Source: Cyanobium sp. M30B3 (GTDB lineage: Bacteria > Cyanobacteriota > Cyanobacteriia > PCC-6307 > Cyanobiaceae). Taken from it: a DNA stretch of 64,000 bases. The translations under genes and the position numbers were made by a program. The stretch spans positions 2,666,001-2,730,000 of the forward strand of contig CP073761.1 in NCBI GenBank assembly GCA_018399015.1. The letters run 5' to 3'. The notes beneath the pieces are model-generated. The model did not search any database and was not told the origin of the DNA. It saw only the letters and a program-made list of their open reading frames with translations. Positions 44,917 to 63,724 of this stretch are shown piece by piece (the stretch's first letter is position 1; each line of letters starts with the position of its first letter).

Positions 44917-44920
44917 TCAA

Positions 44921-45124: not shown

Positions 45125-46018
45125 TTGCTCAAACCCGACTGGCTGCGCGTGAAGGCGCCACAGCGTGAACGGATCGGCGCCGTGGCCGACCTGCTGGTGG
45201 ACCTGAAGCTCAACACGGTGTGCCAGGAGGCCAGTTGCCCCAACATCGGCGAGTGCTTCGCCGGCGGCACGGCCACCTTCCTGATCATGGGGCCGGGCTG
45301 CACCCGGGCCTGCCCCTACTGCGACATCGACTTCGACAAGAGCGTGCGGCCGCTCGACCCCACGGAACCGGAACGGCTGGGGGAGGCGGTGCAGCGCCTG
45401 GGGCTCAGCCACGTGGTGATCACGGCCGTGAACCGCGACGACCTGGCCGATGGCGGCGCCAGCCAGTTCGTGGCCTGCGTGCAGGCGGTGCGTCGCCGCT
45501 CGCCCCTCACCACGATCGAACTGCTGATCCCGGACTTCTGCGGCGACTGGGACGCCCTGGCCGCCGTGATGGACGCCGCGCCGGACGTGCTCAACCACAA
45601 CATCGAAACCGTGCCGCGGCTCTACCGCAGGGCCAGGCCCCAGGCGATCTATGAGCGGTCGCTGGAGCTGCTGCAACGGGTGCAGGAGGGCTGGCCCCGC
45701 ACCTACACCAAATCAGGGCTGATGGTGGGGCTGGGGGAAACGGACGCCGAGGTGCTCGCGGTGCTGGCCGACCTGCGCCGCCACGCCGTGGACATCGTGA
45801 CCATCGGCCAGTACCTCTCACCGGGCCCGAAACACCTGCCGGTGGATCGCTTCGTGACGCCGGAGCAGTTTGAGCAGTTTCACCTAGTGGGCGAACAGGA
45901 GCTCGGCTTTCTGCAGGTGGTGAGCAGTCCGCTCACGCGCAGCAGCTACCATGCAGCTGATGTGCAGCAGCTGATGGAAAAGCATCCGAAAGCACAAACC
46001 ACCAGCCATCACGGCTGA
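45125..46018 (+). CDS. lipA: lipoyl synthase
   Basis: 297 residues. TTG 45125 is the first available start, because an in-frame TGA lies at 45116. Auxiliary cluster cysteines C33, C38 and C44 ([13 protein letters not shown]), and the radical-SAM CxxxCxxC C59, C63, C66 ([12 protein letters not shown]); terminal [11 protein letters not shown]. It inserts two sulfurs into octanoyl groups on carrier proteins. Cyanobacteria often have two lipA genes, so this may be one of two. Confidence 0.94.
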
Positions 46019-46089: not shown

Positions 46090-49000
46090 ATGCCCATTCG
46101 GCGAAAACTCCGAACACTCCTCCTCTCCGCTGCCGGGCCAGCGACGAATCAGAATCATCTCGCCGAAATTTCCACAGAAAGCGCAACTGATACACCATCC
46201 GAAATCGCTTCCCAGCTATGTAAGCGTTATCGCCTCACCCATCTATCCAGCCAGCAAATTCTGCAGTCACTGCGTGTTCTGACCCGTGGAGGCTGGCTCT
46301 GGGTCATCACCGAGCAGCAGCTTCCGAACCACGAGACAAACAGCAGCCCCCCCTTCTGCCTCCAGACCAGACCTCGCCTGACCCGCATCCTTGAGTCGCT
46401 CAACGACCCATCCAGGGCGACCAGCGTGTTCTGCCCCCTGCTCGATGTTGCTTGCAGGCCTCAATTACAGGGACCATTCGATCCGGGTGCCCACAGCCTT
46501 TGCAATGCCACTCCCAGTATTCTGCAGCACCTGAACCTGGCTGCCGCGGGCCAGGAGCCCGATGGTCTGCTGTTTATCGCCTATCACGTTGCCAGGCAAC
46601 TACGGCACTGGCATCAGCATCCCCAGGAGCAGGAATCCCTTCTCACCAGGTTTGCCAGACTGGATCATCATTTTCATGCACTGATCAGTCCCCACCCCTG
46701 CTTTGACAGCCAGCATTACCTGAACCAGCGCCGCCAGCTTGACCACGTCAGCGCCCCGGGGCACTACCACCCCCTGCTCGATTATTTGCGCAATTGCGAG
46801 CGGACCGCTCGATTTCGCTATCTCGAGCCGGTTGCATCGTTCAACCCATCCCTCTGGGAGGTGCGGAGCGCGCAGAACAGTCCAGCCCAGACTGCCGTGC
46901 TCCAGGCCCCTCTGATCAGCTATCTCTCCACCATGGCCAACGCAAAGGACAGTTGCCCCATCAGCTTTCCCAGGCTGGCAGGCCGGGTGGACGGACTGGA
47001 CCAGCAAGGTCTGCTGAAGGGATGGTGCCATTCGCCGGAGAGCGGAAGCCCCATTGAGCTGGAGGTCTGGCTGGCGGGCGTCCGGCTCGGTGCCGGCGTC
47101 GCCCGGGAGGACCGTCCAGACGTGGCCAGCCGGGGCCTGGCCATGCGCGAATGCGGATTCGCGATTCCCCTCGACTTTGAAGCCCTACCCCTGGATCTCC
47201 TACCAAGCCTGAAAGGGGAGCGCTGGCGGATCGTCAGCACCGACCACCGGTACAGCCTCGGCCGAGGTGACTGGAGGCTCACCCCTGAGGACCGGGGCAT
47301 GGTGATGGATCACCTGTTGTTGCGTTCCCTGGCAGAGCAGGATCTCAGCTGCATGAAAACGTGGTTGAGTCGCGACGCCGATGCGGCGGTCGTGGCTTCA
47401 GCCCGCTACCGGATCGTGGAATGGGTGGCCACCGGCGCCATGGCCGGCACCTGGGACACAGCCGCTGTTCTACAGGCCCACCAGGCTGCCCTGGCCAATC
47501 CAGCGTTGCTGCAGGGCGTTGAAGCCGACAGCTGCTGCCGAGCCGAACTGCTGCTTCTCGCCCTGGACCAACTGCAGCGTTGCTGGGCGCAGAAGCCCGG
47601 CAACGCCCAGGAGATACCCCCGCTATCCCAGGACAGCCGCGACCCTGGCCAGCGCAGTGAGGATCTCGCCCACCAGCTGGCTGAACGGTGCTATTTCGGC
47701 CCCACAAGCCGCGAGCGCCAAGCCTGGGACAGCCAACTGCGGCCCTTGTTCAATGTGGTGATCGCCACCCTGCTGCTTCGGGACAACCCCCCCGATCTGG
47801 CCTCCAGCCAGCCATTGATGAAAGCGCTGGTGCGACTCAGCCAGGAGGTATTCGGGGATCTGCAGCTGGCCACCACCCTCACCAACCTGCTCGACCGCAG
47901 CCAACCCAACGGCGATGCCGCCGCTCTCCGTCTGCAGCTGCGCAGTGGCGATGCCCTTGGCGTTGCCATTGCCCACTTCCACCAGCGGCAGGCCGGCCTC
48001 TCCCCATCCCTCACACCCTTCGACCAGGCCCTGGCCCTGCTGGAGGTCAGCAAGCAATCCCTCATCACCATTCAGGCTGCCCTCGAACGCCTGATTCCCC
48101 TCATCCCCGCCCAGCAGGCCCGCACGCCCCGCAGCTCCTTCTCACGCCGCCTGCTCGACCAACTCGGCTGGCATGTCAACACGCTCTCCGCAGGCCTGAT
48201 CGATCAATTCATTGCCCTCGGCCTGCCCAAGCAGCAGGGGCTCTCTCTGCGCCAGCGCTCCGTTGCCCTGCTCACCCAGATCAGCCAGGCTCTCTGGTGC
48301 GGTGACGACGGTCACAGCGGCTGCACCGCCCTGCCCCGATCCACTGCCGCACCCCTGCGCTGGCTGCTCATCGGTGAGCGCTCCCTGCCCCAGTGCTGGC
48401 TCTACCGCGTTGAGCAGAAGCGCCAGCAGCTCGAGCGCTCCGGCGCCGAGGTGCGCTGCATCGACCGAGCCGAACTGGATGCCTGGAGTTCAAGCCAGCA
48501 GATCGCCTGGGCCGATGCCGTGCTCTTCTGCCGTACCCCAGCCACCTACGCCGTGATCAGGGCCCTCACCTTCGCCCGGCACATCGGCAAACAGGTGCTG
48601 GCCGACGTGGATGACCTCGTCTTCTCCACCGATTTCCCCGCTCCCTACATCACCTATGGCGGCTCGATCAGTCGAGCTATCCATCGCCGCCTTGGCCTCG
48701 ACGCTCCCCTGCAGCGCTGGCCTCTGGAGCAGGCCGATGCCGTGATCACCTCCACAGCCGCCCTGGCCGACGCCTGCCGTGGCGCCAGCGCAGCACTGGC
48801 AGACAAGCCCATCACCGTTCTGCCCAACCTGCCCTTACCGGAACTTCAGGGTCTTGCCAAACGCCTTGAACATCAACCACCCCACCGACCCCAGCGCCTG
48901 GTGGTCAGTTCCGGCACCCTCGCCCACAAGCAAATCTGGACGGAGCAGCTGGCTCCCGCCATCGCCCAGTTGCTGGGCGCCCACACCGACCTGCGCCTCT

Positions 49001-52000
49001 CCCTGATCGGCCATCTCGAGCTCCCCGCCTGCCTGCAGCCCTTCTCCTGCCGCATCAGCTCCGTCCCCTACACCGACTACGGCCACTACCTCCAGCAACT
49101 GGCGGAAGCCACCATCGCCCTGGTGCCGCTCGAATCGCACCCCACCACCCACTGCAAGAGCGCCATCAAGTGGATGGAGGCCAGCCTGCTCGGCCTCGCC
49201 ACCATCTGCTCTCCGGTGCGCGCCTACACCGATGCCGCCACTCCAGACGAGCACCTGCTGCTGGCGGACGATCAACAGGCCTGGGTTCGCCAGGTGGAAC
49301 GTCTCCTCCACGATCCCGACCTGCTGCACAGGCTCAGCAGCCAGGCACGCGACCACGCCCACGCCTGCTTCAACGACCCCTTGGGTGACCAGCTCTGGCT
49401 CGCCCAGCTCCAGCCCGCCAGCAACGACAACCTCCCACCAGCAGTCCGCCGTCAGAAGCTGCTGGTGATCAATGTCTTCTTTGCTCCCCAGAGTGTCGGT
49501 GGTGCCACCCGCGTCGCCCAGGACCAGGTACGGGAAATCCTCCACGACCACGCTGATGCCTACGACGTGACCGTCCTCTGCATCGATCACGACCCCTGGC
49601 AGGACCTCACAGGCGACACCCTTCCCCTCGACATCTGGCACTGGCACGGTGCACGCATCGTCCGCCTGGCCGTTCCACCACGCTCCTGGGCCGACATCCA
49701 GGACGGTCGTGTCGAATCCTTCTGCAGGCAATGGTTCCAGGATGAATCGTTCGATCTCATCCACTGCCACTGCTGCCAGGTGCTCACCGCCTCGCCTCTT
49801 GTGGTGGCCAGGCAGCTCGGCATTCCCTACCTCATCACCCTTCACGATGGCTGGTGGCTCAGCCCTGAGCTCTTCCTCGTGAGCCCCGCAGGCCGACCCA
49901 TCGACCCCGCCAAGCCCTTTGATCACATCGATGGCGTTCCCACCGCAGAAGAAAAATCTGTCGCCCTCGAAAGACGCAGCATTCTGTTTGATTTGCTCCG
50001 CCAGGCCAGCCACAGACTGGCGGTATCTAAATCCTTTCGGCAAGTGTATGGACAAGCCGGAGTACCCAATATCGAGACAAACGAGAACACCTACACCCCA
50101 ATGGCATTGGGGAAAGAGAGACCCCTGCGCCAGCCAGAAGAGTCCCTGAGGCTCTGCCACGTAGGTGGAATGGCCTCGCACAAGGGCTATCACATCCTGC
50201 GTCAAGCGGCCCACATCCTTCCAGCGGACCTCCGGCTCACCTTCACAGTCATCGACCATCACCTTCAGGAAGACGATCCTCCCTATACATCCACCTGGAA
50301 TACATACCCTGTTCGATTCATCCCGCCAGTCCCCATGGCGGAGATGGCCAACTTCTACAGCAGTCAGGACATCCTGGTTGCTCCCTCCATCTGGCCCGAG
50401 AGCTTTGGCCTTGTAACTCGGGAAGCGATCAGCGCCGGGCTGTGGGTGATCGCATCAGACATTGGCGCCCTAGCGGAGCCGATCAAAGATGGCATCAACG
50501 GCAACTCGCTGCGACCAAACGACGTCGAGGAGTTGGCGGCAGCAATTCTTGACGTACATCAACGGGGAATCAACCACGACCAAATTTCCAGCCAACCAAT
50601 TTCAGTTGCGCCAACGGCACCCAGCGGCCCACCTAAAAGCAGAATCACTCGCTTTTACAAGCCGAGCACAACCCACAAACTTCTCGGAGAAAAGCTGCAG
50701 TCAAGTCGGCGGCGAAAAGCTCGATCAGCCGATTCCCGCTACCGAATGGTTGCCTGGTGTGCGGCCAACGCCATGGCAGGCCACTGGGATATGGGCGTTG
50801 TTGAATTAGCACAACAAACCACACGCAATAATCCTTCGCAGCAACAGAGCTCGGAAGCAGAAGGATGCAGCAGGGCCGAACTTTTGTTGCTTGCTCTTGG
50901 CCAGCTTCTGCAGTGCTGGGACAGTGATCGCATCCATACCATTCTTGCGACCCCCCCATCCGACCTCGTCAACCCCAGCCAACGTTGTCAGATCCTGGCC
51001 GACCAACTAGCAGAACGCTGTTATTTCGGTCCCAGCGCTCGCGAGCGCCAGTGCTGGGACGCGCAGGTAAGACCCCTGTTCAATGTGGTGATCGCCACCC
51101 TGTTGCTGCAAACCGATCCCCCAGACGTCACACCTACACGACCCATTCTGAACAGTTTGGTAACCCTCAGCCAGGAGGTATTCGGGGATCTGCAGCTGGC
51201 CACCACCCTCACCAACCTGCTCGACCGCAGCCAACCCAACGGCGATGCCGCCTCTCTCCGTCTGCAGCTGCGCAGTGGCGATGCCCTTGGCGTTGCCATT
51301 GCCCACTTCCACCAGCGACAGGCCGGCCTCTCCCCATCCCTCACCCCCTTCGACCAGGCCCTGGCCCTGCTGGAGGTCAGCAAGCAATCCCTCATCACCA
51401 TTCAGGCTGCCCTCGAACGCCTGATTCCCCTCGTCCCCGCCCAGCAGGCCCGCACCCCCCGCAGCTCCTTCTCACGCCGCCTGCTCGACCAACTCGGCTG
51501 GCATGTCAACACGCTCTCCGCTGGCCTGATCGATCAATTCATTGCCCTCGGCCTGCCCAAGCAGCAGGGGCTCTCTCTGCGCCAGCGCTCCGTTGCCCTG
51601 CTCACCCAGATCAGCCAGGCTCTCTGGTGCGGTGACGACGGTCACAGCGGCTGCACCGCCCTGCCCCGATCCACTGCCGCACCCCTGCGCTGGCTCCTCA
51701 TCGGTGAGCGCTCCCTGCCCCAGTGCTGGCTCTACCGCGTTGAGCAGAAGCGCCAGCAGCTCGAGCGCTCCGGCGCCGAGGTGCGCTGCATCGACCGCAG
51801 CGAACTGGATGCCTGGAGTTCCAGTCAGCAGATCGCCTGGGCCGATGCCGTGCTCTTCTGCCGTACCCCAGCCACCTACGGCGTGATCAGGGCCCTCACC
51901 TTCGCCCGGCACATCGGCAAACAGGTGCTGGCCGACGTGGATGACCTCGTCTTCTCCACCGATTTCCCCGCTCCCTACATCACCTATGGCGGCTCGATCA

Positions 52001-53994
52001 GTCGAGCTATCCATCGCCGCCTTGGCCTCGACGCTCCCCTGCAGCGCTGGCCTCTGGAGCAGGCCGATGCCGTGATCACCTCCACAGCCGCCCTGGCCGA
52101 CGCCTGCCGGGGCGCCAGCGCAGCACTGGCAGACAAGCCCATCACCGTTCTGCCCAACCTGCCCTTACCGGAACTTCAGGGTCTTGCCAAACGCCTTGAA
52201 CATCAACCACCCCACCGACCCCAGCGCCTGGTGGTCAGTTCCGGCACCCTCGCCCACAAGCAGATCTGGACGGAGCAGCTGGCTCCCGCCATCGCCCAGT
52301 TGCTGGCCGCCCACCCCGACCTGCGCCTCTCCCTGATCGGCCATCTCGAGCTCCCCGCCTGCCTGCAGCCCTTCTCCTGCCGCATCAGCTCCGTTCCCTA
52401 CACCGACTACGGCCACTACCTCCAGCAACTGGCGGAAGCCACCATCGCCCTGGTGCCGCTCGAATCGCACCCCACCACCCACTGCAAGAGCGCCATCAAG
52501 TGGATGGAGGCCAGCCTGCTCGGCCTCGCCACCATCTGCTCACCGGTGCGCGCCTACACCGATGCCGCCACTCCAGACGAGCACCTGCTGCTGGCGGACG
52601 ATCAACAGGCCTGGGTTCGCCAGGTGGAACGTCTCCTCCACGATCCCGACCTGCTGCACAGGCTCAGCAGCCAGGCACGCGATCACGCCCACGCCTGCTT
52701 CAACGACCCCTTGGGTGACCAACTCTGGCTCGCCCAGCTCCAGCCCGCCAGCAACGACAACCTCCCACCAGCAGTCCGCCGTCAGAAGCTGCTGGTGATC
52801 AATGTCTTCTTTGCTCCCCAGAGTGTCGGTGGTGCCACCCGCGTCGCCCAGGACCAGGTACGGGAAATCCTCCACGACCACGCTGATGCCTACGACGTGA
52901 CCGTCCTCTGCATCGATCACGACCCCTGGCAGGACCTCACAGGCGACACCCTTCCCCTCGACATCTGGCACTGGCACGGTGCACGCATCGTCCGCCTGGC
53001 CGTTCCACCACGCTCCTGGGCCGACATCCAGGACGGTCGTGTCGAATCCTTCTGCAGGCAATGGTTCCAGGATGAATCGTTCGATCTCATCCACTGCCAC
53101 TGCTGCCAGGTGCTCACCGCCTCGCCTCTTGTGGTGGCCAGGCAGCTCGGCATTCCCTACCTCATCACCCTTCACGATGGCTGGTGGCTCAGCCCTGAGC
53201 TCTTCCTCGTGAGCCCCGCAGGCCGACCCATCGACCCCGCCAAGCCCTTTGATCACATCGATGGCGTTCCCACGGCAGAAGAAAAATCTGTCGCCCTCGA
53301 AAGACGCAGCATTCTCTCAGGAATTCTGCAGGGCGCCCAACAGCGACTGGCAGTATCGGATCCATTCCGAAAGGTATATGAAAAGGCCGGAATTTCCAAG
53401 GTCGGAGTGCGGGAGAATACATTCACTCCGATGCCTTCTCAACAACCACGGACGCCACGATCACCGGGAAGCCGAGTGCGCATTTGCCACATAGGGGGGA
53501 TGGCCATGCACAAGGGCTTCCAGATACTACGCAAGGCCGTGCACCTATTGCCTCCCCAGCTCAACTTAGAACTAACCATCATCGATCATCGCCTGCAAGA
53601 GGACGATACATCCTACTCCTCAAGCTGGAATGGCTACCCAATTCATTTCATTCCGCCAATACCGATGGGTAAAATGGCGAACTTCTACGCCACGCAAGAC
53701 GCCTTAGTCGCACCTTCGATTTGGCCAGAGAGCTTCGGGCTCGTGACAAGGGAAGCACTTAGTGCTGGCCTATGCGTTGTTGCAACCAACACGGGGGCAC
53801 TCTCAGCAGGACTTGAAGGCAATCCCGATGCTTTCATTATTAATGAATGCAACCCAAGGGTGCTAGCACAAGAACTCGCCAATACACTTGTCAAGCTACC
53901 GAATATAAAACTGGCTTGCAAGGCCGTGGCAAACCAACCTGCCGAAGTGAAGGAGATGACTGAGCAAAGCCAAAGGCTAAGGCTAAGCAATTGA
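46090..53994 (+). CDS. giant four-module glycosyltransferase with internal duplication
   Basis: 2,634 residues, no membrane segment seen. Order: residues 1-290, unclear, with FDSQHYLNQRRQLD typical of large glycosyltransferases; 298-364, a beta-domain (GRVDGLDQQGLLKGWC ... GFAIPLDF); about 420-740, a helical region; then GT-B module A1 (about 756-1107), module B1 (about 1123-1495, FGLVTREAISAG), a second helical region, A2 (1866-2217) and B2 (2233 to end). A modules show KSAIKWMEASLLG; B modules show HVGGMASHKG and PSIWPESFGLVTREA. These fit the GT4 family (NDP-sugar transfer). Unit 2 lies exactly 3,330 bases after unit 1. Probably assembles a repeating surface glycan. Confidence 0.85.
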   Translation: MPIRRKLRTLLLSAAGPATNQNHLAEISTESATDTPSEIASQLCKRYRLTHLSSQQILQSLRVLTRGGWLWVITEQQLPNHETNSSPPFCLQTRPRLTRILESLNDPSRATSVFCPLLDVACRPQLQGPFDPGAHSLCNATPSILQHLNLAAAGQEPDGLLFIAYHVARQLRHWHQHPQEQESLLTRFARLDHHFHALISPHPCFDSQHYLNQRRQLDHVSAPGHYHPLLDYLRNCERTARFRYLEPVASFNPSLWEVRSAQNSPAQTAVLQAPLISYLSTMANAKDSCPISFPRLAGRVDGLDQQGLLKGWCHSPESGSPIELEVWLAGVRLGAGVAREDRPDVASRGLAMRECGFAIPLDFEALPLDLLPSLKGERWRIVSTDHRYSLGRGDWRLTPEDRGMVMDHLLLRSLAEQDLSCMKTWLSRDADAAVVASARYRIVEWVATGAMAGTWDTAAVLQAHQAALANPALLQGVEADSCCRAELLLLALDQLQRCWAQKPGNAQEIPPLSQDSRDPGQRSEDLAHQLAERCYFGPTSRERQAWDSQLRPLFNVVIATLLLRDNPPDLASSQPLMKALVRLSQEVFGDLQLATTLTNLLDRSQPNGDAAALRLQLRSGDALGVAIAHFHQRQAGLSPSLTPFDQALALLEVSKQSLITIQAALERLIPLIPAQQARTPRSSFSRRLLDQLGWHVNTLSAGLIDQFIALGLPKQQGLSLRQRSVALLTQISQALWCGDDGHSGCTALPRSTAAPLRWLLIGERSLPQCWLYRVEQKRQQLERSGAEVRCIDRAELDAWSSSQQIAWADAVLFCRTPATYAVIRALTFARHIGKQVLADVDDLVFSTDFPAPYITYGGSISRAIHRRLGLDAPLQRWPLEQADAVITSTAALADACRGASAALADKPITVLPNLPLPELQGLAKRLEHQPPHRPQRLVVSSGTLAHKQIWTEQLAPAIAQLLGAHTDLRLSLIGHLELPACLQPFSCRISSVPYTDYGHYLQQLAEATIALVPLESHPTTHCKSAIKWMEASLLGLATICSPVRAYTDAATPDEHLLLADDQQAWVRQVERLLHDPDLLHRLSSQARDHAHACFNDPLGDQLWLAQLQPASNDNLPPAVRRQKLLVINVFFAPQSVGGATRVAQDQVREILHDHADAYDVTVLCIDHDPWQDLTGDTLPLDIWHWHGARIVRLAVPPRSWADIQDGRVESFCRQWFQDESFDLIHCHCCQVLTASPLVVARQLGIPYLITLHDGWWLSPELFLVSPAGRPIDPAKPFDHIDGVPTAEEKSVALERRSILFDLLRQASHRLAVSKSFRQVYGQAGVPNIETNENTYTPMALGKERPLRQPEESLRLCHVGGMASHKGYHILRQAAHILPADLRLTFTVIDHHLQEDDPPYTSTWNTYPVRFIPPVPMAEMANFYSSQDILVAPSIWPESFGLVTREAISAGLWVIASDIGALAEPIKDGINGNSLRPNDVEELAAAILDVHQRGINHDQISSQPISVAPTAPSGPPKSRITRFYKPSTTHKLLGEKLQSSRRRKARSADSRYRMVAWCAANAMAGHWDMGVVELAQQTTRNNPSQQQSSEAEGCSRAELLLLALGQLLQCWDSDRIHTILATPPSDLVNPSQRCQILADQLAERCYFGPSARERQCWDAQVRPLFNVVIATLLLQTDPPDVTPTRPILNSLVTLSQEVFGDLQLATTLTNLLDRSQPNGDAASLRLQLRSGDALGVAIAHFHQRQAGLSPSLTPFDQALALLEVSKQSLITIQAALERLIPLVPAQQARTPRSSFSRRLLDQLGWHVNTLSAGLIDQFIALGLPKQQGLSLRQRSVALLTQISQALWCGDDGHSGCTALPRSTAAPLRWLLIGERSLPQCWLYRVEQKRQQLERSGAEVRCIDRSELDAWSSSQQIAWADAVLFCRTPATYGVIRALTFARHIGKQVLADVDDLVFSTDFPAPYITYGGSISRAIHRRLGLDAPLQRWPLEQADAVITSTAALADACRGASAALADKPITVLPNLPLPELQGLAKRLEHQPPHRPQRLVVSSGTLAHKQIWTEQLAPAIAQLLAAHPDLRLSLIGHLELPACLQPFSCRISSVPYTDYGHYLQQLAEATIALVPLESHPTTHCKSAIKWMEASLLGLATICSPVRAYTDAATPDEHLLLADDQQAWVRQVERLLHDPDLLHRLSSQARDHAHACFNDPLGDQLWLAQLQPASNDNLPPAVRRQKLLVINVFFAPQSVGGATRVAQDQVREILHDHADAYDVTVLCIDHDPWQDLTGDTLPLDIWHWHGARIVRLAVPPRSWADIQDGRVESFCRQWFQDESFDLIHCHCCQVLTASPLVVARQLGIPYLITLHDGWWLSPELFLVSPAGRPIDPAKPFDHIDGVPTAEEKSVALERRSILSGILQGAQQRLAVSDPFRKVYEKAGISKVGVRENTFTPMPSQQPRTPRSPGSRVRICHIGGMAMHKGFQILRKAVHLLPPQLNLELTIIDHRLQEDDTSYSSSWNGYPIHFIPPIPMGKMANFYATQDALVAPSIWPESFGLVTREALSAGLCVVATNTGALSAGLEGNPDAFIINECNPRVLAQELANTLVKLPNIKLACKAVANQPAEVKEMTEQSQRLRLSN
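47836..49985 (+). repeat. homogenised repeat unit, copy 1
   Basis: 2,150 bases inside the giant glycosyltransferase gene (codons about 583-1299), nearly identical to 51166-53315 at a constant offset of 3,330 bases. I counted about 22 single-base differences by eye, most of them silent. Sequence on both sides aligns at the same offset as protein but is clearly diverged in DNA. Confidence 0.9.
51166..53315 (+). repeat. homogenised repeat unit, copy 2
   Basis: Second copy (codons about 1693-2409) of the block at 47836-49985. It covers the end of the helical region, all of module A and the N-terminal half of module B. The acceptor-type half of B (LFDLLRQ in copy 1, LSGILQG in copy 2) begins right at the boundary. 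Confidence 0.9.
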
Positions 53995-54133
53995 GAGCTT
54001 TGACGGTTCCAGGCAGGCCAAGAAGGCTAAGCAACTATGCAATGCACGAATTATGGCATGAATCGTGCGGGATTCTGGCATGTTAGCATTCGCCCATGAC
54101 CATCTCAAGACCCGACCGCTACACATTGAAGCA

Positions 54134-54913
54134 ATGAACATTGATTTTATAATTTGTGGAGTTGAGCATAGCGGTACAACACTTGCCTCAGATTTATTCC
54201 GGCAGATTCCAGGCTGCGACTCTGGCTTTGAGTGCGGTGTTCTACTCGCGGACAGCCCCCAGGCATTCAAAGGAATGAACCCTTTTTACAACAACATGAA
54301 GGGAGGATGGAGGCTAACCGATAGGGCCCTCGAATCCGCATGCGCAAAGGAAACATTCGACGAGTTCTACGAGTGCATTTACAAGGATTCAGAACTTGTT
54401 CAGGGCTCAAGGATCAAGTTTGACAAGACACCACGCTATATAACAAAAATACAAAGCATCCGCCAGAAATGCGATGCCCCCGTTATTGCAATGACGAAGA
54501 GCATTGAAGGTATTGCATGGTCAGACTACAAGAGATCTGCCTTTTTCAAAAGCTCTGATTTGCATTCGTTTATCGATCAATGGATCACTCCTAAGACGGG
54601 ATATCTTAAGAGCGCCCTAAAGGGATATAGGTTTGCGTCCAAAGATCCCTCATGCAAAATAATACACCTAGAAGATCTGGCCTTCCAAGCTCTCAATACA
54701 TGCAATCGCATGTTTGAGCATGCAAATCAAGTATTTGACCCGAGCTACTTTACTCTTGCAAACCAAAGATATGGACATACGCGAAGCAATTCCATCAATC
54801 TTTCGATAGCCACAGAGCACATGTCCACTGACGCGGAAGAACTTACGAGCATTGTATCTAGCAAGATGAGTGACTTAATCAAGGCATGGCCGAAGCCTCG
54901 CCACAGCAACTGA
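54134..54913 (+). CDS. sulfotransferase-like protein (type 1)
   Basis: 259 residues from ATG 54134; the frame also opens from GTG 54065 and ATG 54080. The P-loop-like 5' phosphosulfate-binding motif is GVEHSGTT at residues 9-16, near the N-terminus as in PAPS-dependent sulfotransferases. RIKFDKTPRYITKIQSIRQ resembles the Stf0/sulfotransferase-3 middle segment. It would transfer sulfate from PAPS to a sugar hydroxyl. AT-rich codon usage contrasts sharply with the upstream genes. Acceptor unknown. Confidence 0.65.
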   Translation: MNIDFIICGVEHSGTTLASDLFRQIPGCDSGFECGVLLADSPQAFKGMNPFYNNMKGGWRLTDRALESACAKETFDEFYECIYKDSELVQGSRIKFDKTPRYITKIQSIRQKCDAPVIAMTKSIEGIAWSDYKRSAFFKSSDLHSFIDQWITPKTGYLKSALKGYRFASKDPSCKIIHLEDLAFQALNTCNRMFEHANQVFDPSYFTLANQRYGHTRSNSINLSIATEHMSTDAEELTSIVSSKMSDLIKAWPKPRHSN

Positions 54914-54931
54914 ATTCACCACTTCTGAACA

Positions 54932-56032
54932 ATGGATACTACTCGGAAAGTCTGCATTGTCCAAATGGAGGCGGTACATGAAGAAATCATCCCTTCACTA
55001 ATACATGCCTTGAATTCAATACACATCAAGCCAGATATATACATCAATAGAGATTGCAAGCTGAGGCGAGGAGATATCTTCAAAGAGATCACTGGCCTTA
55101 ATGCTTGCATAAGTTATGTTCCTATCAACGGAAAGCCAGACTGGCAGAATCTTCAAAAACTTATCCAGAGCAAAAACTATAATGCCTGCCTATTTTCAAC
55201 ATATCAACGAAAAAGTATTCTCGATTTCTCGCTGGCCCTTGAGATTCCAGTGTTCGGCATTGTCCACAATGTTTCATTATTTATCGAAGCTTTCTTGACA
55301 TCAAGGCATGCAAAGCCAAAGCAGGATCAGATTCGAGGCATAATAACGCTTTCAGAACATGTATGTAGCACCCTGATCAGTGAATTCAAGTACGCGTCAG
55401 CGACTGACCTAATTACCAGCTGTATCAAGCCATACTTCTGGCAGGATATATCTCATATTGATATTGACGTGCCTAGACACAGTTCGACAACTTTTGTCAT
55501 ACCAGGTGGGGTCAACTTTGCGAATAGAGATTTTAAAGGCTTAATAGAAGCCATTAAAGAGATGCCTATCAGCAGCAGTCAAGTACATTTTATCGTAGCA
55601 GGTGGAGGACGAGATCGCAACAGTCTTGAAGCAACAGTCAAAGATTTGGGTCTGGATCAGTATTTTAGTTTTGCAGCACGAAACTCTCTGGGCTGGGTTG
55701 AATACAAAGACTATTATGAATGCATTTTATCTTCGACCTATGTGCTACCACTTACAAGCAACAAAGCATATCTAAGCACAAAGATCACCAGTGCGATACC
55801 AACATCTATCGGGTTTTGCAAGCCTTCGCTGATACCGGAAGAGCAGAAAGAGCTTTACAAGATACCGGCCTTCCCATTCCCAGGAGATGACCTTAGAGAA
55901 GCCATTATGAATGTTGTAAGTTGCGACGAAATGAAGTATCTCGAGACCAAGAATGATTTGAAGGAATTACTTAGCGAGCAGCTAAAGTCTAATGCCGAAT
56001 CGACATCGATCCTTTTGTCACACGCGACTTAG
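54932..56032 (+). CDS. GT4-like glycosyltransferase
   Basis: 366 residues. GT-B plan: the N-terminal half holds IPVFGIVHNVSLFIEAF, and the C-terminal half begins TTFVIPGGVNFANRDFKGLIEAI, with VHFIVAGGGRDRNSLEATVKDLGL and YYECILSSTYVLPLTSNKAY. This corresponds to a donor-binding domain, but the usual E-x7-E is weak. AT-rich. It lies 18 bases after the type 1 sulfotransferase and 3 bases before the next one, so the three are probably co-transcribed. Confidence 0.68.
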   Translation: MDTTRKVCIVQMEAVHEEIIPSLIHALNSIHIKPDIYINRDCKLRRGDIFKEITGLNACISYVPINGKPDWQNLQKLIQSKNYNACLFSTYQRKSILDFSLALEIPVFGIVHNVSLFIEAFLTSRHAKPKQDQIRGIITLSEHVCSTLISEFKYASATDLITSCIKPYFWQDISHIDIDVPRHSSTTFVIPGGVNFANRDFKGLIEAIKEMPISSSQVHFIVAGGGRDRNSLEATVKDLGLDQYFSFAARNSLGWVEYKDYYECILSSTYVLPLTSNKAYLSTKITSAIPTSIGFCKPSLIPEEQKELYKIPAFPFPGDDLREAIMNVVSCDEMKYLETKNDLKELLSEQLKSNAESTSILLSHAT

Positions 56033-56035
56033 AGC

Positions 56036-56755
56036 ATGCCATACATAAAAAGTTTAAATCTATTTCACGTCCACAACCCTCGTTGCGGTGGCACAACAAT
56101 AAATGCCGCATTGTCTCAGTCAGGCCACTTTCCAATCCCTAACATTTATGATTTATCTCCACGGCCCGATCTCTTTTACGGCAATACAGACTGCTACAAG
56201 GATGCAGATAGATATTCTATTCCAAAACTAGAGCTTGATCACTTGCCCATCTCGATGGTGCTATCTCGATTACAGTTAGATGATATTAAGTCCCTTATCT
56301 TTTTTTCAACGGTTAGGCATCCCTGGGATCGCTTCATGTCGGAATATAATAGGAAAAAGGCAACCAATGATAACAGACTTTTTTGCGCTCAGGACTCAAC
56401 GTTTGAAGATTTTCTGATTAAGTTCACAACCATTATTACAAACAAACGTGGTGCGCTGAAAAGCCAGTTCAATGCGTCTCACTTTTGGCCTCAGCACTAC
56501 TATGCTGGTTTCTCTCATCACGCTGACATCGATCAATATTGTATCTTACATCTTGAGAGATTAGAACTAGAGTGGTATAACCTGGAAAAAAAACTAGGGT
56601 TTATAGCCCCTTTGCCTGCAAGAAAAAACTCCTCAAAAATCTTTTCAAACGAATCTATGATCACTGAAATGGATTTTAAAAGCAAACACCCTAAGGAATA
56701 CTCAGTTTATAGAGATTACTACGAGCTTGACTACAAGTTATTCAATTACCAATAA
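56036..56755 (+). CDS. sulfotransferase family 2-like protein (type 2)
   Basis: 239 residues. HNPRCGGTT at about residues 13-21 matches the PKxGGTS-type 5'-PSB loop of membrane-type carbohydrate sulfotransferases. FFSTVRHPWDRFMSEYNRKK (about 90-110) fits the 3'-PB motif with its conserved R-x-P-W-R/D-R. No transmembrane helix. The last 14 bases overlap the convergent GT2 gene. AT-rich. Confidence 0.75.
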   Translation: MPYIKSLNLFHVHNPRCGGTTINAALSQSGHFPIPNIYDLSPRPDLFYGNTDCYKDADRYSIPKLELDHLPISMVLSRLQLDDIKSLIFFSTVRHPWDRFMSEYNRKKATNDNRLFCAQDSTFEDFLIKFTTIITNKRGALKSQFNASHFWPQHYYAGFSHHADIDQYCILHLERLELEWYNLEKKLGFIAPLPARKNSSKIFSNESMITEMDFKSKHPKEYSVYRDYYELDYKLFNYQ

Positions 56756-57503
56756 TTGGAATAGCGCCCCATTTAGTTTCAAAGTACTTCTGGGCTTCTA
56801 ACTTTTTCAAGCCAGCCTCTCTCTTCTGCGAACCCGTCTGATAACTTCCTGGGTAGTGCTCGAACACAGAACATGGATTGGCATAGATTTTTAGTTGTTG
56901 ATTATAGCATTGAAAAAAGAAGTCAAAGAGTTCCATAAAGAATTGGTACTCTGGATCAAAGCGGACCTTATTAAATATGCTTGACTTGACTAATAATGAC
57001 GCTTGGACATCATGGAGCTGAACAGGATGTGAGCGCTCTGCCCCTTTGAACCTATGCTTTTCAATACATAATTGATTTTTCCTTAATGATTCTAAATAGA
57101 CAAATCCAAGAGGTCTTTCGCTCTGTGTGTCATTTCGGTAGTCTATCCACCGGCCTGAACAAATGTCGATGGATTCATTGGCGTTCATCAACATTATCAT
57201 GTTTTCAATTGCATCCCTTCTGGCAACGAGGTCTTCATCAAGAAAGAGTATCTTGTCGCAACCTAAGGCTAATGCTTTGTCTGCGCCAATTTGGCGAGCC
57301 TCAGATGGTCCAGACCAGGGCGAGAAAAGCTGAGTACAGTGATATTTGATTGATATTTCTTCGTATTTTTGGAGGATCTGATCGTGGTGCGCCGGACTGG
57401 TATTGACTATAATAATACTGGAAAACAAGTCAAGGCTTAGAGAGCATAGCAATCGCTCTAGCTTTTCAGGTCTTCCGCAAACAGGGATACAAAGGGAAAT
57501 CAT
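56742..57503 (-). CDS. GT2-family glycosyltransferase
   Basis: 253 residues on the opposite strand. ISLCIPVCGRPEKLERLLCSL, SGPSEARQIGADKALAL and KILFLDEDLVARRDAI (DxD-type) define a GT-A domain. A later segment RSHPVQLHDVQASLLVKSSIF and FMELFDFFFQCYNQQLKIYANP fits the acceptor part. AT-rich like its neighbours. The inverted orientation inside the cluster suggests piecemeal assembly. Confidence 0.78.
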   Translation of the reverse strand: MISLCIPVCGRPEKLERLLCSLSLDLFSSIIIVNTSPAHHDQILQKYEEISIKYHCTQLFSPWSGPSEARQIGADKALALGCDKILFLDEDLVARRDAIENMIMLMNANESIDICSGRWIDYRNDTQSERPLGFVYLESLRKNQLCIEKHRFKGAERSHPVQLHDVQASLLVKSSIFNKVRFDPEYQFFMELFDFFFQCYNQQLKIYANPCSVFEHYPGSYQTGSQKREAGLKKLEAQKYFETKWGAIPIIGN

Positions 57504-57933
57504 TGCAGATGATAAAGGTGTTTCAGAAGGAATAGAAGATCCGAGAGCAAGTACAGAGTCCTTTACGTTCTACCATTGAACCCCAAAATGGTTAAACAAA
57601 CAGAAGCTTAACAGCGGACTCATGCCAGAATAACAGGTGATGCTCATTTTATCGAATCCTAGCAGTCATAGGCGAATGAAGCGGCGTATTCTTCAAAAGA
57701 TAGGAGTATAGATATACGCAGAGAAGCAGGATAAGCAATCCTGAATTGACAATAGAGGCTAATCGTACAGGCAGCCACCAGGTTCTTCCTTCGTCGCCAC
57801 GATATTGATTAAGGCTTTGATTCCGATAAGAAAGGAACTCTTGTAAAGCCAGGCGATCTCAAGCAATGGGTTTCGAGGGCGTGACAAAGTCGCCTTAAAT
57901 GCTATCCTAGAGCGAACAAGGACAAAAATCAAC
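57504..57933. other. AT-rich gap without recognisable gene
   Basis: 430 bases between the minus-strand GT2 gene and the next sulfotransferase. Both flanking genes are read outward from it, so it must hold two promoters. I see no conserved frame; a 78-codon minus-strand frame at its right edge is antisense to the next gene. It may include decayed sequence. Confidence 0.4.
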
Positions 57934-58734
57934 ATGATGTATTGCAAGATATTTGGGGAAAGAAATACGGGGACAAACTTTTTAACTCGATTCATTAGGC
58001 TAAATACTGACTTAGAATATATAGATAGTCAGTCGATTCGAAAGTCAGTTCAGAAAAGAGATGCAATTATACGCAACTGCATTCAAGAAAATTTGATCCC
58101 AGTGGCAGCTCCCATCATAAATCAGTACTTGGCTCCATTGGTGCTAGACCGCTTGATCGATGAGCAACGCGAGGATGAGTTCGAGACTACTTTTGGCTGG
58201 AAACATGCAAGAGTTTTAAAAGATAGAATCATGAAGTCACCGCGATATTCAGATACACTATTTGTCTGTCTTATCCGAAATCCGTGGCGATTCATATCGG
58301 CATTGCATAAACGGCCCTACAATCTCTTCCCAAAAGTAAAGTGTACTTTGGAACAGTTTATTACAATGCCATGTCTGGCAAACCAGCGAGATGCCCTTGA
58401 TGATCTTCTCGTAATCAACCCTGTTGATTTCTGGAATCAAAAAGTCAATTCATATTTTAGCTTTGCCGATGCGAGCAATCAAGTTCTCATTATATACTAC
58501 GAACAACTAGTAGCAGATCCCGAATTGTTCACGGATCAGCTTCGTACTTTCTGCAGTGTTTCTGATAAGTTGGTGATTCCCAGTAATTCGACTAAAGGAG
58601 ACCCTCAGACATTTGACGACTACAGACGAGAAGCCCAAAACTATGATGCAAGAAAGATATTAGGCGATCGAGCATATACAATGATCCAGGAAAGATTAGA
58701 CAATAAGGTTCTGGCAAAAACACTTTATAGCTAA
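57934..58734 (+). CDS. sulfotransferase-like protein (type 3)
   Basis: 266 residues. FGERNTGTNFL at residues 7-17 is a variant 5'-PSB loop (GERNxGTN) seen in a distinct group of sulfotransferase-like proteins, and LFVCLIRNPWRFISALHKRPYN is a good 3'-PB-type strand-helix. TFGWKHARVL between them fits the same group. No membrane segment. AT-rich. The acceptor is unknown, and the sulfate-transfer activity is inferred from the fold signatures alone. Confidence 0.65.
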   Translation: MMYCKIFGERNTGTNFLTRFIRLNTDLEYIDSQSIRKSVQKRDAIIRNCIQENLIPVAAPIINQYLAPLVLDRLIDEQREDEFETTFGWKHARVLKDRIMKSPRYSDTLFVCLIRNPWRFISALHKRPYNLFPKVKCTLEQFITMPCLANQRDALDDLLVINPVDFWNQKVNSYFSFADASNQVLIIYYEQLVADPELFTDQLRTFCSVSDKLVIPSNSTKGDPQTFDDYRREAQNYDARKILGDRAYTMIQERLDNKVLAKTLYS

Positions 58735-58997
58735 GCTGACCTACGCCCAAACCTTCTCTGGGCACCCCTGCAGACCTTGTATTAGTTTCTATATGCTGAT
58801 TGGTGATCCTTGGTCTTAAGACATGCGAGCAAGAATGCAATCGGGGTATTAGCGTGCTCCTTGAACTTACCTTGCGCTAAGTCAATTCCGAATACAAACT
58901 CCCTCAGGCCTTCAAAAATAAATGAATGAAATTCACCCGGTCAAGAAAAGTTTGGAAGTTCTGATTGCGCAGCACTCTCGCACTGTCTACCTAGGCG

Positions 58998-59846
58998 ATG
59001 ACACATTGCAACCCTAAGCACCTGCTAAGCTGCTGGTACCAATTCGATGCAGTCGCTAATCACATGGACCCTACTAGATCTGACGAGTTCATACATGTCA
59101 AGCAGCACCATGGTCAGGATGGTCGGACAGATTCGATGCCGATTCAATATTCTGAGAGTATTATGCTGATGCGCCAGGATTCCCCAGTTACTATAATTGC
59201 ATTTGCAGGAATCTCTCAGGCATTTGGCGGCATTCCCCCTTTCAACTTTGTACGAGCTCTGGGCAATGCTAAAGCAAATATCATTTTTGTCCGTGATCCA
59301 AATAACAAGTGGTTTGGGAACCCTATACCCGACCTGGGAGATAGCACGTTAGAAATGGCTGCAAACTTGCGACTGATAGTTAACGAGCTTAACACCAATC
59401 AACTCTGCCTCATGGGCATTTCCTCAGGGGCTTTTGCTGCTCTTATGTTTGCCGCATTAATAGAAGACCCATGTCGAGTGCTTGCCTTCAGTCCACAAAC
59501 CTGCATCCGGCCAAGTTTCCTAAACATGATCGGTGATTCACGATATAATCAAAAACTGCACGGAAGAAGAGACAGCGAAGTGCAAGACGTACTGCCCCTC
59601 CTTGAAACAGCTATCAACATAGAAAAAATACATGCTATTTTGGGAAAGCAGGATCCTCTTGACGTCCACCACATTCAACGACTATCAGACTTGCCGAACG
59701 TAGTCACTCATATAATCGAATGTGGGCATAACACAGCCGGTTACTTAAAGAAGAGACGATTACTGCAATCCGCAATAGACAGGTTTATTCATTGTGATGA
59801 TCAGGGCTTCAGTACCATGCTTTATGAAGAGATCACAATCCTATAA
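58998..59846 (+). CDS. alpha/beta-hydrolase-like protein
   Basis: 282 residues from ATG 58998; ATG 59064 and 59136 are possible and the first 46 residues look unconserved. The core has VTIIAFAGISQAFGGIPPFN, the nucleophile elbow GISSGAFAALMFAAL with Ser, and the late IIECGHNTAGYL with the likely catalytic His. Similar hydrolases occur in capsule and O-antigen loci, where they may act as deacetylases or esterases; that role is inference. Its 3' end runs toward the next sulfotransferase with only a 43-base gap. Confidence 0.65.
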   Translation: MTHCNPKHLLSCWYQFDAVANHMDPTRSDEFIHVKQHHGQDGRTDSMPIQYSESIMLMRQDSPVTIIAFAGISQAFGGIPPFNFVRALGNAKANIIFVRDPNNKWFGNPIPDLGDSTLEMAANLRLIVNELNTNQLCLMGISSGAFAALMFAALIEDPCRVLAFSPQTCIRPSFLNMIGDSRYNQKLHGRRDSEVQDVLPLLETAINIEKIHAILGKQDPLDVHHIQRLSDLPNVVTHIIECGHNTAGYLKKRRLLQSAIDRFIHCDDQGFSTMLYEEITIL

Positions 59847-59889
59847 GTTCAACAGTTTTTTCGCCCTACGCTTTCCAATTATCCAAGTT

Positions 59890-60678
59890 ATGGCAAAACA
59901 ACTTCAGTTTATCTTCATTGCAGGCTGCCCTCATAGCGGAACTAGCATTCTCCATAGGTTATTCTCCTTGCATAAGGATACACTGGGAATTCCTGGCGAG
60001 AGTGGCCTGTTCCTGAACAACCCAAGTAATGAGCGAATTCAGACAACCCTCTCAAGCTGGCGTACCCAGGCAATAGACGAAGGAAAGCGATATATCGTGG
60101 AAAAAACTCCATGGCACGGCCTGAAAACCGGGCAAATCTCAGCTATTTTACCAGGTGCCAGATTTCTCTTTATCATTCGCAATCCAATTGATACGTATGG
60201 GTCCCTAAAGCAACGCGGGGCAACAACCCGGATAAAGGATTCACGCGAAAGCAGAATAGAAGTCATTTCAAAGTTCTTCAAGGCTGCAGCTGAGACGAAG
60301 GCTCCGCTTGTAACTTTAGAAGATCTAACCAATAATCCTACCGATGAATTGCTGAGATGTTTAAATGCAGTTAATATTTTGACGACCAAGCCAGATGCTG
60401 AAGCGATTCTAGCTGCTCAATCTCAGTCAGCATTGGGCGCCAAAGACTCGAGCATGCAAAGAACTGAACCTTCTGATCGCACAGATGGAGCTTCTCACAG
60501 AGAACTTCGTGCTTGGCAAATAAGGCAACCGATCTTTAACAATACGCGTAATCGTAATAACGTTGAGCCAGCCGAGGTTGAACAAATTACTGCTGTGCTC
60601 CATCCGCTTGTCTCTCAGCTCTCTCACCAACTCAACCTGGCGGCTTGGGGACATGACTTTCCATTTTTACTCAACTAG
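59890..60678 (+). CDS. sulfotransferase-like protein (type 4)
   Basis: 262 residues from ATG 59890; the frame opens earlier inside the hydrolase gene. The 5'-PSB loop GCPHSGTS is at residues 12-19, and the 3'-PB segment GARFLFIIRNPIDTYGSL is at about 91-108, with EKTPWHGLK between them. This is the clearest Stf0/sulfotransferase-3 type protein of the four. AT-rich. Probably sulfates a surface glycan made by the neighbouring glycosyltransferases. Confidence 0.76.
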   Translation: MAKQLQFIFIAGCPHSGTSILHRLFSLHKDTLGIPGESGLFLNNPSNERIQTTLSSWRTQAIDEGKRYIVEKTPWHGLKTGQISAILPGARFLFIIRNPIDTYGSLKQRGATTRIKDSRESRIEVISKFFKAAAETKAPLVTLEDLTNNPTDELLRCLNAVNILTTKPDAEAILAAQSQSALGAKDSSMQRTEPSDRTDGASHRELRAWQIRQPIFNNTRNRNNVEPAEVEQITAVLHPLVSQLSHQLNLAAWGHDFPFLLN

Positions 60679-60900: not shown

Positions 60901-61170
60901 ATGAACATGAAAGAGCTGGTGGCTGCTGTATCAGCCGAGACCAACATTCCAGCTGCCAAGGTCCGCAAAGTGACTGCTGCTGTGCTCGATCAATTTGCCC
61001 AATTAATTGAATCCAAGGGCAAGTTTACCTCCGCTGCAATCACGATCGCCGGTGTCGTCATTCCGTCGAAACCAGCCACCGATGATAAGCCTGAACAACC
61101 AGAGCGCAGGCTGGCCCGTATGCGCGTCCGCAAGAAGAAAACCGATCCATCATCTGAAGAGAAAGCCTGA
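60901..61170 (+). CDS. small HU-like protein
   Basis: 89 residues. The first 55 (MNMKELVAAVSAETNIPAAK, then VRKVTAAVLDQFAQLIESKG) resemble the helical dimerisation half of HU/IHF. The DNA-wrapping beta-arms are missing and replaced by a basic Lys/Arg/Pro tail (RRLARMRVRKKKTDPS). ATG 60907 is an equally good start. It shares the V-x-x-I/V-x-x-x-T...P...VRK pattern with the C-terminal part of the protein at 61564-62022. DNA binding is plausible but unproven. Confidence 0.55.
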   Translation: MNMKELVAAVSAETNIPAAKVRKVTAAVLDQFAQLIESKGKFTSAAITIAGVVIPSKPATDDKPEQPERRLARMRVRKKKTDPSSEEKA

Positions 61171-61454: not shown

Positions 61455-61563
61455 GTTGCCCTGATCACTGACCGATCCCGCCAACGCAGGTGAGAATGGC
61501 CACCTCCGCCAGCTCCCCTGCCATTCGGCTCTGTTCCTCTCGCTGCTCAACGCGTTGTTCACC

Positions 61564-62208: not shown

Positions 62209-63144
62209 ATGTCCTGCAACGCCCGCAAGGGCATCATCCTGGCCGGCGGCAGCGGCACCCGCCTCCACCCCATCACCCAGGGGGTGAGCAAGCAGCTGCT
62301 GCCGGTGTACGACAAGCCGATGATCTACTACCCGCTCAGCACGCTGATGCTGGCGGGGATCCGTGAGGTGCTGATCATCACCACCCCGGTGGACCAGCCG
62401 GCCTTTGAACGGCTGTTGGGGGATGGCAGCCGCTGGGGCATGACGATCCAGTACGCCCAGCAGCCCAGTCCGGATGGGCTGGCCCAGGCCTTCCTGATCG
62501 GCGACGACTTCCTGGCAGGCGCCCCGGCGGCGCTGGTGCTGGGCGACAACCTCTTCCATGGCCACGACCTGGTGCCCCAACTGGCCGCCAGCAATGGCAG
62601 CGCCACGGGAGCCACGGTGTATGCCTATCCCGTGAGCGACCCGGAGCGCTACGGGGTTGTGGCCTTCGATCGGCAGGGTCGGGTGACCAGCCTGGAGGAG
62701 AAACCCGCCAACCCCAGCAGCCGCTACGCGGTGACCGGCCTCTACTTCTACGACCACACCGTGGTGGAGCGGGCCCGTCAGGTGGTGCCCTCCCCCCGGG
62801 GCGAGCTGGAGATCACCGATCTCAACCGCATGTATCTGGAGGATGGCCTGCTGCAGGTGGAACTGATGGGCCGGGGCATGGCCTGGCTGGATACGGGCAC
62901 CTGCGACTCCCTGCACGAGGCAGCCAGCTACATCCGCACCCTGGAACACCGCCAGGGCCTGAAGGTGGGCTGCCCGGAGGAGGTGGCCTGGCGGCAGGGC
63001 TGGATCAACAGCGAGCAGCTGGAACGGCTGGCGCTGCCGCTGCGCAAGAGTGGCTATGGCGACTACCTGCTGCAGCTGCTGCAGGAGGGCGAGGGCGACC
63101 ACGTGGCGCTGCAACAGAGTCTGGAGGTTCCCCATGCAGGTTGA
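62209..63144 (+). CDS. rfbA: glucose-1-phosphate thymidylyltransferase
   Basis: 311 residues. The nucleotidyltransferase signature [16 protein letters not shown] is at residues 8-23, with [17 protein letters not shown] next; LGDNLFHG carries the metal-binding Asp, and [16 protein letters not shown] follows. It makes dTDP-glucose, the first step of dTDP-L-rhamnose synthesis. It overlaps rfbC by 11 bases. rfbB, the dehydratase, is not in this window. Confidence 0.96.
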
Positions 63145-63724
63145 AGAGCTCAGCACAGCCGGGGGGCAGCTGATGGAGGGGCCCCTGCTGATCACGCCCA
63201 AGCTGTTCGGCGATGACCGGGGCTTCTTTTTCGAGAGCTGGAACCAGCGCCGCTTCGACGAAGCCGTTGGAGCGGCCATCAGCTTTTCCCAGGACAACCA
63301 TTCCCGCTCCTGCCGCGGCGTGCTGCGCGGCCTGCACTACCAGCTGGAGCCAGAACCCCAGGGCAAGCTGGTGCGCTGCCCCATGGGAGCGGTGTTCGAT
63401 GTGGCGGTGGACCTGCGCCGCGGATCGCCCACCTTCGGCCAGTGGGTGGGTGCCGAGCTCAGCGCCGACAACCAACAGCAGCTGTGGGTGCCGGTGGGCT
63501 TCGCCCACGGCTTCCTCACGTTGACTGAGACTGCCGAGGTGCTCTACAAGGCCAGCGGTTTCTGGAGCAAAACCTGTGAGCGATCCCTGCTCTGGAACGA
63601 CCCTGAGCTGGCAATTGCCTGGCCCCTGGATCGCCTCAACGGCAGCGAGCCACTGCTGGCCGAGAAGGATGCCGCTGCCCCCGGCTTTCCCGAGGCCATT
63701 GCCGCCGGGGAGGTGTTCGCGTGA
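63134..63724 (+). CDS. rfbC: dTDP-4-dehydrorhamnose 3,5-epimerase
   Basis: 196 residues from ATG 63134. RmlC cupin signatures are [37 protein letters not shown] (with the catalytic His) and [21 protein letters not shown]. Third step of dTDP-rhamnose synthesis. The stop overlaps the rfbD start (GTGA). Confidence 0.96.

Follow-up and report, generated by a model that had tools for sequence, protein, structure and literature searches.

The DNA analysed here is a window of 64,000 nucleotides from the 3.18-Mb single-contig genome of Cyanobium sp. M30B3 (G000:C1:2666001-2730000; positions below are those of the window unless stated otherwise), and the subject is an AT-rich stretch of seven genes within it. 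Photosystem genes can be recognised by eye elsewhere in the window. These genes comprise four of sulfotransferase (ST) type (ST-A, ST-C, ST-E and ST-G), two encoding glycosyltransferases (GTs; GT-B and GT2-D, the latter of GT family 2 and inverted) and one encoding an alpha/beta hydrolase-like protein, and all seven are open frames. A preliminary description had reported this gene set in an AT-rich island, and both its coordinates and its composition hold: G+C is 43.0% across 54065-60678, compared with 68% in 1-46000. The dip is not due to chance, since the lowest of 394 equal-length stretches from 1-46000 has 63.9% G+C (the highest has 71.2%). At third codon positions, G+C is 0.39-0.50 in the seven island genes and runs from 0.73 (the giant multidomain GT next to them) to 0.92 in the other genes called from position 20000 onward.

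The stretch is part of a larger insertion, which starts just past lipA (position 46018; genome position 2712018) and ends about 41 kb outside the window at gltB (genome position about 2771362; Pfam GXGXG domain, gene name recognised from sequence), such that 59.3 kb separate the two genes. Among family genomes with a gltB locus, gltB lies within 0.45 kb of lipA in 17 of 22, and within the genus in 7 of 11 with a gap of less than 0.1 kb. In this survey, the G012 locus runs into contig ends on both sides and G020 has no lipA within 1.5 kb of gltB, while G007 and G008 yielded no gltB match. The two genes were not neighbors in any of eight loci from other families. Best copies of lipA in 12 congeners are 82-90% identical, two of them being partial. 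Composition, together with insertion between two normally close genes, argues for a foreign origin, as the preliminary description had proposed. Tycheposon-type integrative elements, which target tRNA genes, insert directly at a tRNA gene. The Cyanobium island does not: it begins past lipA, leaving about 1 kb between its left junction and a tRNA-Pro gene (44920-44995), and no tRNA gene occurs in loci L012, L079 and L080.

In addition to the giant GT and the AT-rich stretch, the insertion holds rfb-type nucleotide-sugar genes, a gene for a WbsX/RgpF protein, several transposase genes (IS110, rve and Mu-type families, located mid-island), a methyltransferase gene and an ST-like gene near gltB. 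Past the transposase genes, an AT-rich gene (L012:17788-18615; G000:C1 about 2747788-2748615) encodes a loop, HTGKCAGES, that looks ST-like by eye, and it matches none of the Pfam sulfotransferase families at 0.01. The lipA-gltB site is also occupied in two congeners. That of G005 has a 5.4-kb insert with a large GT, an ST-like gene and a further gene that matches Sulfotransfer_2 at 0.0054, and that of G004, which is divided between two contigs, contains transposases, a methyltransferase gene, a gene of nucleotide-sugar-transferase type and two ST-like genes that have no match in Pfam. The ST-like gene near gltB in M30B3 shares 70% identity with a gene close to gltB in G004 and 48% with one beside lipA in G005; none of these three matches Pfam at 0.01, and they are termed ST-like on the basis of a KTGTS loop.

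Strain-variable content at one core-genome site was seen again at a second shared site. M30B3 has another AT-rich island, from 5.6 to 17.2 kb past genome position 714000, with a gene matching Sulfotransfer_3 (6.7e-6). G005 has matching flanks (76% and 84% by blastn) around a 12-kb AT-rich island that lacks any blastn match to the M30B3 island. Near the left end of the G005 island is a relative of ST-A (44% identity), followed 29 bases further by a relative of GT-B (35%); the ST-A/GT-B pair thus sits at lipA-gltB in one species and elsewhere in another. M30B3 has 13 Sulfotransfer_3 matches in about 11 genes. In a family comparison of 200 genomes it ranked at the top with at least 12, and seven others had at least 11, so its number is high, not unique. 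G+C was 0.41-0.45 in four and 0.58-0.68 in six of ten further ST-type genes, and hence not every sulfotransferase is an AT-rich island gene. Elsewhere in the genome (L017:3776-9821; G000:C1 about 2244775-2250820), four adjoining AT-rich genes have KTGT-, KTGS- or KCAS-type loops, and one of the four has a Pfam sulfotransferase match at 0.01.

PAPS (3'-phosphoadenosine 5'-phosphosulfate)-dependent sulfotransferases bind the 3'-phosphate through an Arg or Lys followed eight residues later by a Ser. This pair (Arg/Lys with Ser at +8) and a 5'-phosphosulfate loop are present in ST-A, ST-C and ST-G (Table 1), the loops of ST-A, ST-C, ST-E and ST-G starting at residues 9, 15, 8 and 12, respectively. 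The Pfam matches of ST-C and ST-G are over the cut-off and those of ST-A and ST-E are under it. Hidden Markov model searches, which the preliminary description had suggested as a check, returned sulfotransferase families and, at E up to 1 in Pfam, no kinase or other P-loop family for any of the seven island proteins, and that identity was rejected. ST-A can be assigned because its family matches PF13469 (5 of 5 members, best 2.4e-22) and because its family profile matches solved protein-tyrosine sulfotransferase structures (E 2.3e-8). Four relatives came from one scan of genome contigs, and the alignment is invariant at CGxEHSGTT and DKTP. A predicted structure of ST-A (mean predicted local distance difference test score, pLDDT, 52.4; predicted template modelling score 0.57) had Foldseek matches exclusively above E 0.1, which carry little weight; the first 23 were either sulfotransferases or retinol dehydratase, a related enzyme. 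ST-C has a match to phrog_3347, a phage family of galactose-3-O-sulfotransferase (E 1.1e-10), and no solved structure was matched by its family profile with E values up to 1. By sequence, the predicted identity of ST-A, ST-C and ST-G as sulfotransferases is firm. The preliminary description had counted all four proteins as PAPS-loop sulfotransferases; the claim is weaker for ST-E, which is under the cut-off and has its serine at +7.

Table 1. Genes and predicted features of the lipA-proximal part of the insertion
Feature	Position	Strand	Pfam match (E)	Remarks
lipA-like gene	45125..46018	+	PF04055 (Radical SAM), 9e-22	Lipoyl synthase name recognised from sequence; left insertion border
Giant multidomain glycosyltransferase, 2634 aa (amino acids)	46090..53994	+	PF00534, 1.4e-49; PF13692, 1.2e-48	First insertion gene
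ST-A	54134..54913	+	PF13469, 3.7e-4	Earlier GTG start possible at 54065; loop GVEHSGTT 54158-54181; K122, S130
GT-B, group 1-type glycosyltransferase	54932..56032	+	PF00534, 0.0064	Weak match, under cut-off
ST-C, Sulfotransfer_2 type	56036..56755	+	PF03567, 7.7e-11	Loop PRCGGTT 56078-56098; R94, S102
GT2-D, family 2 glycosyltransferase	56742..57503	-	PF00535, 1.6e-10	Inverted gene; above cut-off
ST-E, divergent sulfotransferase-like	57934..58734	+	PF13469, 5.7e-5; PF00685, 8e-4	Loop GERNTGTN 57955-57978; R115, Ser at +7
Alpha/beta hydrolase-like	58998..59846	+	PF00561, 0.0091	Under cut-off; GISSG motif with later D and H (possible triad)
ST-G, Sulfotransfer_3 type	about 59890..60678	+	PF13469, 1.4e-14	Loop GCPHSGTS 59923-59946; R97, S105
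rfbA-like nucleotidyl transferase	62209..63144	+	PF00483, 1e-72	rfb name recognised from sequence
rfbC-like open reading frame (ORF)	63050-63724			After rfbA-like; name recognised from sequence
rfbD-like	L012:30-632		PF04321, 5.2e-51	Beyond window; name recognised from sequence
rfbB-like	L012:771-1850		PF16363, 4.4e-81	Beyond window; name recognised from sequence

ST-E is probably a sulfotransferase as well. Its relatives comprise a protein of the cyanobacterial genome G436 (39% identity) and three proteins on Rhodobacterales plasmids (27-29%), in which the serine stands at +8 when the alignment is read by eye. At E 0.01, PF00685 (Sulfotransfer_1) was matched by 4 of 5 family members (best 8e-4) and PF13469 by 2 of 5 (best 5.7e-5), all weakly. 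Against solved structures, the family profile placed an EF-hand protein on top (5.2e-4), which is taken as a chance match, and sulfotransferases at 0.49-0.5. When the ST-E family profile was aligned by hhalign to those of ST-A and ST-C, the matches were unconvincing (probabilities 0.5-7.7%, E 0.11 to 0.0045), and a single-sequence structure model had a mean pLDDT of 35.5. ST-E matched only itself in 60 genomes of relatives, and searches of phages and of viral contigs, as well as a search of genome contigs with its own peptide patterns, found none. It had been considered an orphan, a view overturned by the G436 and plasmid relatives.

Two features next to the ST-type genes may be noted. The giant GT gene contains a 2.33-kb direct repeat (47662-49985 and 50991-53315, 96.9% identical) that is probably a recent internal duplication. 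To the right of the AT-rich stretch are two small HU-like ORFs (60901-61170 and 61555-62022), the first of which weakly matches the phage DNA-binding family phrog_379 (E 9e-4). No copy of these ORFs or of the island DNA was found in the other compared loci.

Relatives of the island genes recur in combinations in other cyanobacteria. GT-B matched 10 of 386 genomes of the phylum, strongly in M30B3, G005 and G249; ST-C matched 16 of 400 family genomes, strongly in G249, G436 and G348 besides M30B3; ST-A matched 3 of 194 phylum genomes and ST-G 14 of 292, M30B3 included in both counts. Neighborhoods were read for the strong matches and for two (G283 and G160) of the 13 further genomes with ST-G; the weak matches, in 12 genomes for ST-C and in 7 for GT-B, are outside this reading, as is G238 for ST-A. 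The pairing of ST-A with GT-B recurs in two other genomes, that of GT-B with ST-C in three and that of ST-E with ST-C in one. In G249, the GT-B and ST-C relatives are 112 bases apart and are the sole called genes of a small AT-rich insert. In G348 they are 47 bases apart (GT-B relative 25% identical), and in G436, in an AT-rich stretch, 1.1 kb (GT-B relative 22% identical), with the ST-E relative 24 bases upstream of that of ST-C. In L095, ST-A relatives occur together with a protein having a GT-B-like half. The best ST-G relative (G283) is in a 2.6-kb insert of 45.8% G+C and adjoins a Sulfotransfer_2 gene. The G249 insert (L108:8274-10848) is located between convergent core genes and beside a tRNA-Ser gene; the corresponding interval of the window (30829-32907), which adjoins an alanine racemase gene, has no called ST-type gene. 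One ST-A relative of L095 (6936-8636) is fused to a methyltransferase domain, with PF13469 (1.3e-20) and PF13578 (2.2e-13) in one protein.

This recurrence bears on the idea that the acquired genes of the stretch have no function in common and merely accumulated, being retained by chance at a tolerant insertion site. The strain-specific content, the nearby transposases and the long gaps between some genes would fit such an accumulation. All seven frames are open, however, the four loops and the 3'-phosphate residues are kept save for the serine of ST-E, and the pairs are found again in other genera, where the proteins are 22-44% identical, which makes a chance assembly improbable.

Some of the relatives are on plasmids. 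On one Paracoccus plasmid, an ST-E relative adjoins a GT2 (GT family 2) gene where G+C drops from 0.69-0.73 to 0.40-0.41; a second ST-E relative likewise adjoins a GT2 gene, on another Paracoccus plasmid (9.7 kb, mobilizable according to its typing); the third, from Roseinatronobacter, has no GT neighbors, giving GT2 in two of three. By tblastn at 1e-3, these GT2 genes do not match GT2-D. A GT-B relative on a Ruegeria plasmid is followed by a GT2 gene and an annotated sulfotransferase, and an ST-A relative (37%) on a Sulfitobacter plasmid is beside rfbFGH and GTs. Hydrolase relatives were found in 7 plasmid records at 22-29% identity; the four loci read all have polysaccharide or sialic-acid-type neighbors; two of them also include a gene annotated as a sulfotransferase, and another includes one for a sulfate-activating enzyme. 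ST-C, ST-G and GT2-D had no plasmid matches. Viral origin was considered and rejected, as pattern scans of viral contigs, which reach close relatives only, turned up nothing related to the hydrolase or to ST-A, ST-C or ST-E, and phage records contained no relative of ST-E or ST-C. Since ST-C matches phrog_3347, this gene may still have a phage link.

The genes around the island and around most relatives (GT, rhamnose-type and polysaccharide genes) agree with the glycan setting that had been suggested for the stretch. Relatives of the giant GT (31-48% identity over 763-862 residues) occur in six of the eight loci outside M30B3 that bear ST-A, ST-C or GT-B relatives (L041, in which L093 is contained; L095; L096; L107; L129; and L130; but not L094 or L108). 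A glycan context for the gene pairs is further indicated by the WbsX/RgpF protein of the island, by rfbFGH and GTs at the plasmid ST-A, by GT2 at two of the three plasmid ST-E relatives and by GT2 and a sulfotransferase after the plasmid GT-B. We consider it unlikely that proteins, lipids or small molecules, instead of polysaccharide, are the acceptors of the sulfotransferases. The nearest solved structures to the ST-A family profile, being protein-tyrosine sulfotransferases, would favor such targets; against them, 12 of the 13 examined loci outside M30B3 with ST-A, ST-C, ST-E or GT-B relatives have a GT-type gene nearby (L133 has none), although in L108 this is GT-B itself and the neighbors in L094 suggest no more than sugar- or export-type genes.

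The preliminary description had further envisaged a pathway, and the co-location of GTs, sulfotransferases, rhamnose-type genes and the WbsX/RgpF protein would suit a complete, self-contained sulfated exopolysaccharide pathway gained as one unit. We judge this unlikely. A crude hydropathy scan of the island (window from 46000 on, L012, L079 and L080) found no polymerase- or flippase-like protein, that is, no ORF of at least 150 amino acids with at least four hydrophobic spans; the scan misses ORFs crossing the ends of these stretches and did not include a profile search for Wzx, Wzy or ABC export families. Transposase genes of the three families interrupt the island midway. G+C is near native on both sides of the AT-rich part (giant GT, 62.5%; 62209-64000, 68.2%), which indicates that the island pieces differ in origin, and the gene pairs recur separately from one another.

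Rather, we hypothesize that the stretch consists of horizontally acquired, AT-rich glycan-tailoring cassettes within a 59-kb surface-polysaccharide island between lipA and gltB, that the cassettes are exchangeable and that they use the polysaccharide machinery of the host cell; on the sequence evidence we regard this as reasonably probable. Sugars would be attached by the giant GT, GT-B and GT2-D, and those sugars would receive sulfate, with PAPS as the donor, through ST-A, ST-C, ST-G and probably ST-E. The PAPS would be made by the ordinary sulfate-activation genes of the cell, and its supply is expected because M30B3 has an adenosine 5'-phosphosulfate kinase (one match), as do 11 of 14 control genomes. 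Polymerization and export would be carried out by machinery encoded elsewhere, since ORFs with multiple hydrophobic spans were absent from the island in the crude scan. Because the combinations ST-A/GT-B, GT-B/ST-C and ST-E with ST-C or GT2 recur in other genomes and insertion sites, strains would differ in surface sulfation, perhaps as an escape from phages or grazers. That sulfate is added at several different positions of one glycan, as had been proposed, is unproven.

Several observations weigh against this hypothesis. No mobility enzyme is tied to the ST/GT cassettes, and gaps of 430 and 263 bases between genes of the AT-rich stretch do not suggest a single operon. GT-B and the hydrolase have Pfam matches solely under the cut-off, and the GT-B family profile found no solved structure at E up to 0.1. 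In the cyanobacterial loci that were compared, neither GT2-D nor the hydrolase has a conserved partner, and a hydrolase relative in the cyanobacterium G145 has no recognisable polysaccharide neighbors. ST-E lacks the serine at +8, as does its G436 relative, where the serine is also at +7. The ST-like genes that G005 and G004 have at lipA-gltB show weak Pfam matches or none, and the giant GT of G005 at this site does not count as a relative of the one in the window at 1e-15.

Sulfotransferases in cyanobacterial polysaccharide clusters are not new. Studies of synechan (PMC8205485, PMC13125312) place them there in their available sections, and in those of PMC8205485 cyanobacterial sulfotransferases are mostly in putative polysaccharide clusters that are more or less partial. 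The earlier statement that the genetics of sulfated exopolysaccharides is poorly understood in picocyanobacteria therefore needs qualification, although the words Cyanobium and picocyanobacteria are absent from the main text of that paper. As described there, the xss (synechan) locus of Synechocystis PCC 6803 resembles the island in having sulfotransferases of distinct subfamilies among GTs in one locus. It differs in having two sulfotransferases along with Wzx and Wzy, a co-polymerase and dedicated regulators (PMC8205485), whereas the island has four ST-type genes in 6.6 kb and, by the crude scan, no such export genes; unlike xss as covered in these sections, the island is an insertion at variable sites with recurring GT-ST pairs. 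The flexible islands of Salinibacter ruber are similar in that the O-antigen cluster contains variable islands with an enrichment of sulfotransferases and GTs, which the authors tie to virus-host recognition (PMC6060240); this organism belongs to a different phylum, and recurring GT-B/ST pairs at different core sites are not described in the sections available. Variable islands with gained genes, one with a beta-glycosyltransferase, are also described in part of a report on marine Prochlorococcus, Synechococcus and Cyanobium (PMC7522525), in whose main text the word sulfotransferase is absent. We found no published account of ST/GT islands in picocyanobacteria in a search that left most subscription journals uncovered. 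What appears to be new here is the recurring GT-B/ST pairing and the lipA-gltB site, the presence of sulfotransferases with GTs in polysaccharide or variable islands being already known.

A broader and more tentative possibility is that AT-rich GT-ST pairs form a class of exchangeable cassettes, traded between picocyanobacteria and Rhodobacterales partly on mobilizable plasmids and placed in a few tolerant intergenic sites, which might give each strain a combination of sulfated surface sugars of its own, as a modular sulfation code under pressure from phages or grazers. Divergent sulfotransferase-like proteins are brought to notice by this work, including the three plasmid relatives of ST-E, which are annotated as hypothetical proteins. 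The synechan paper, in its available sections, names no cluster for variable surface sulfation in picocyanobacteria (PMC8205485). If our hypothesis is correct, the cassettes would provide a genetic basis for it together with testable units, namely two- and three-gene cassettes, defined insertion sites and relatives with an empty site, and would connect the chemistry of sulfation with resistance against phages and grazers.

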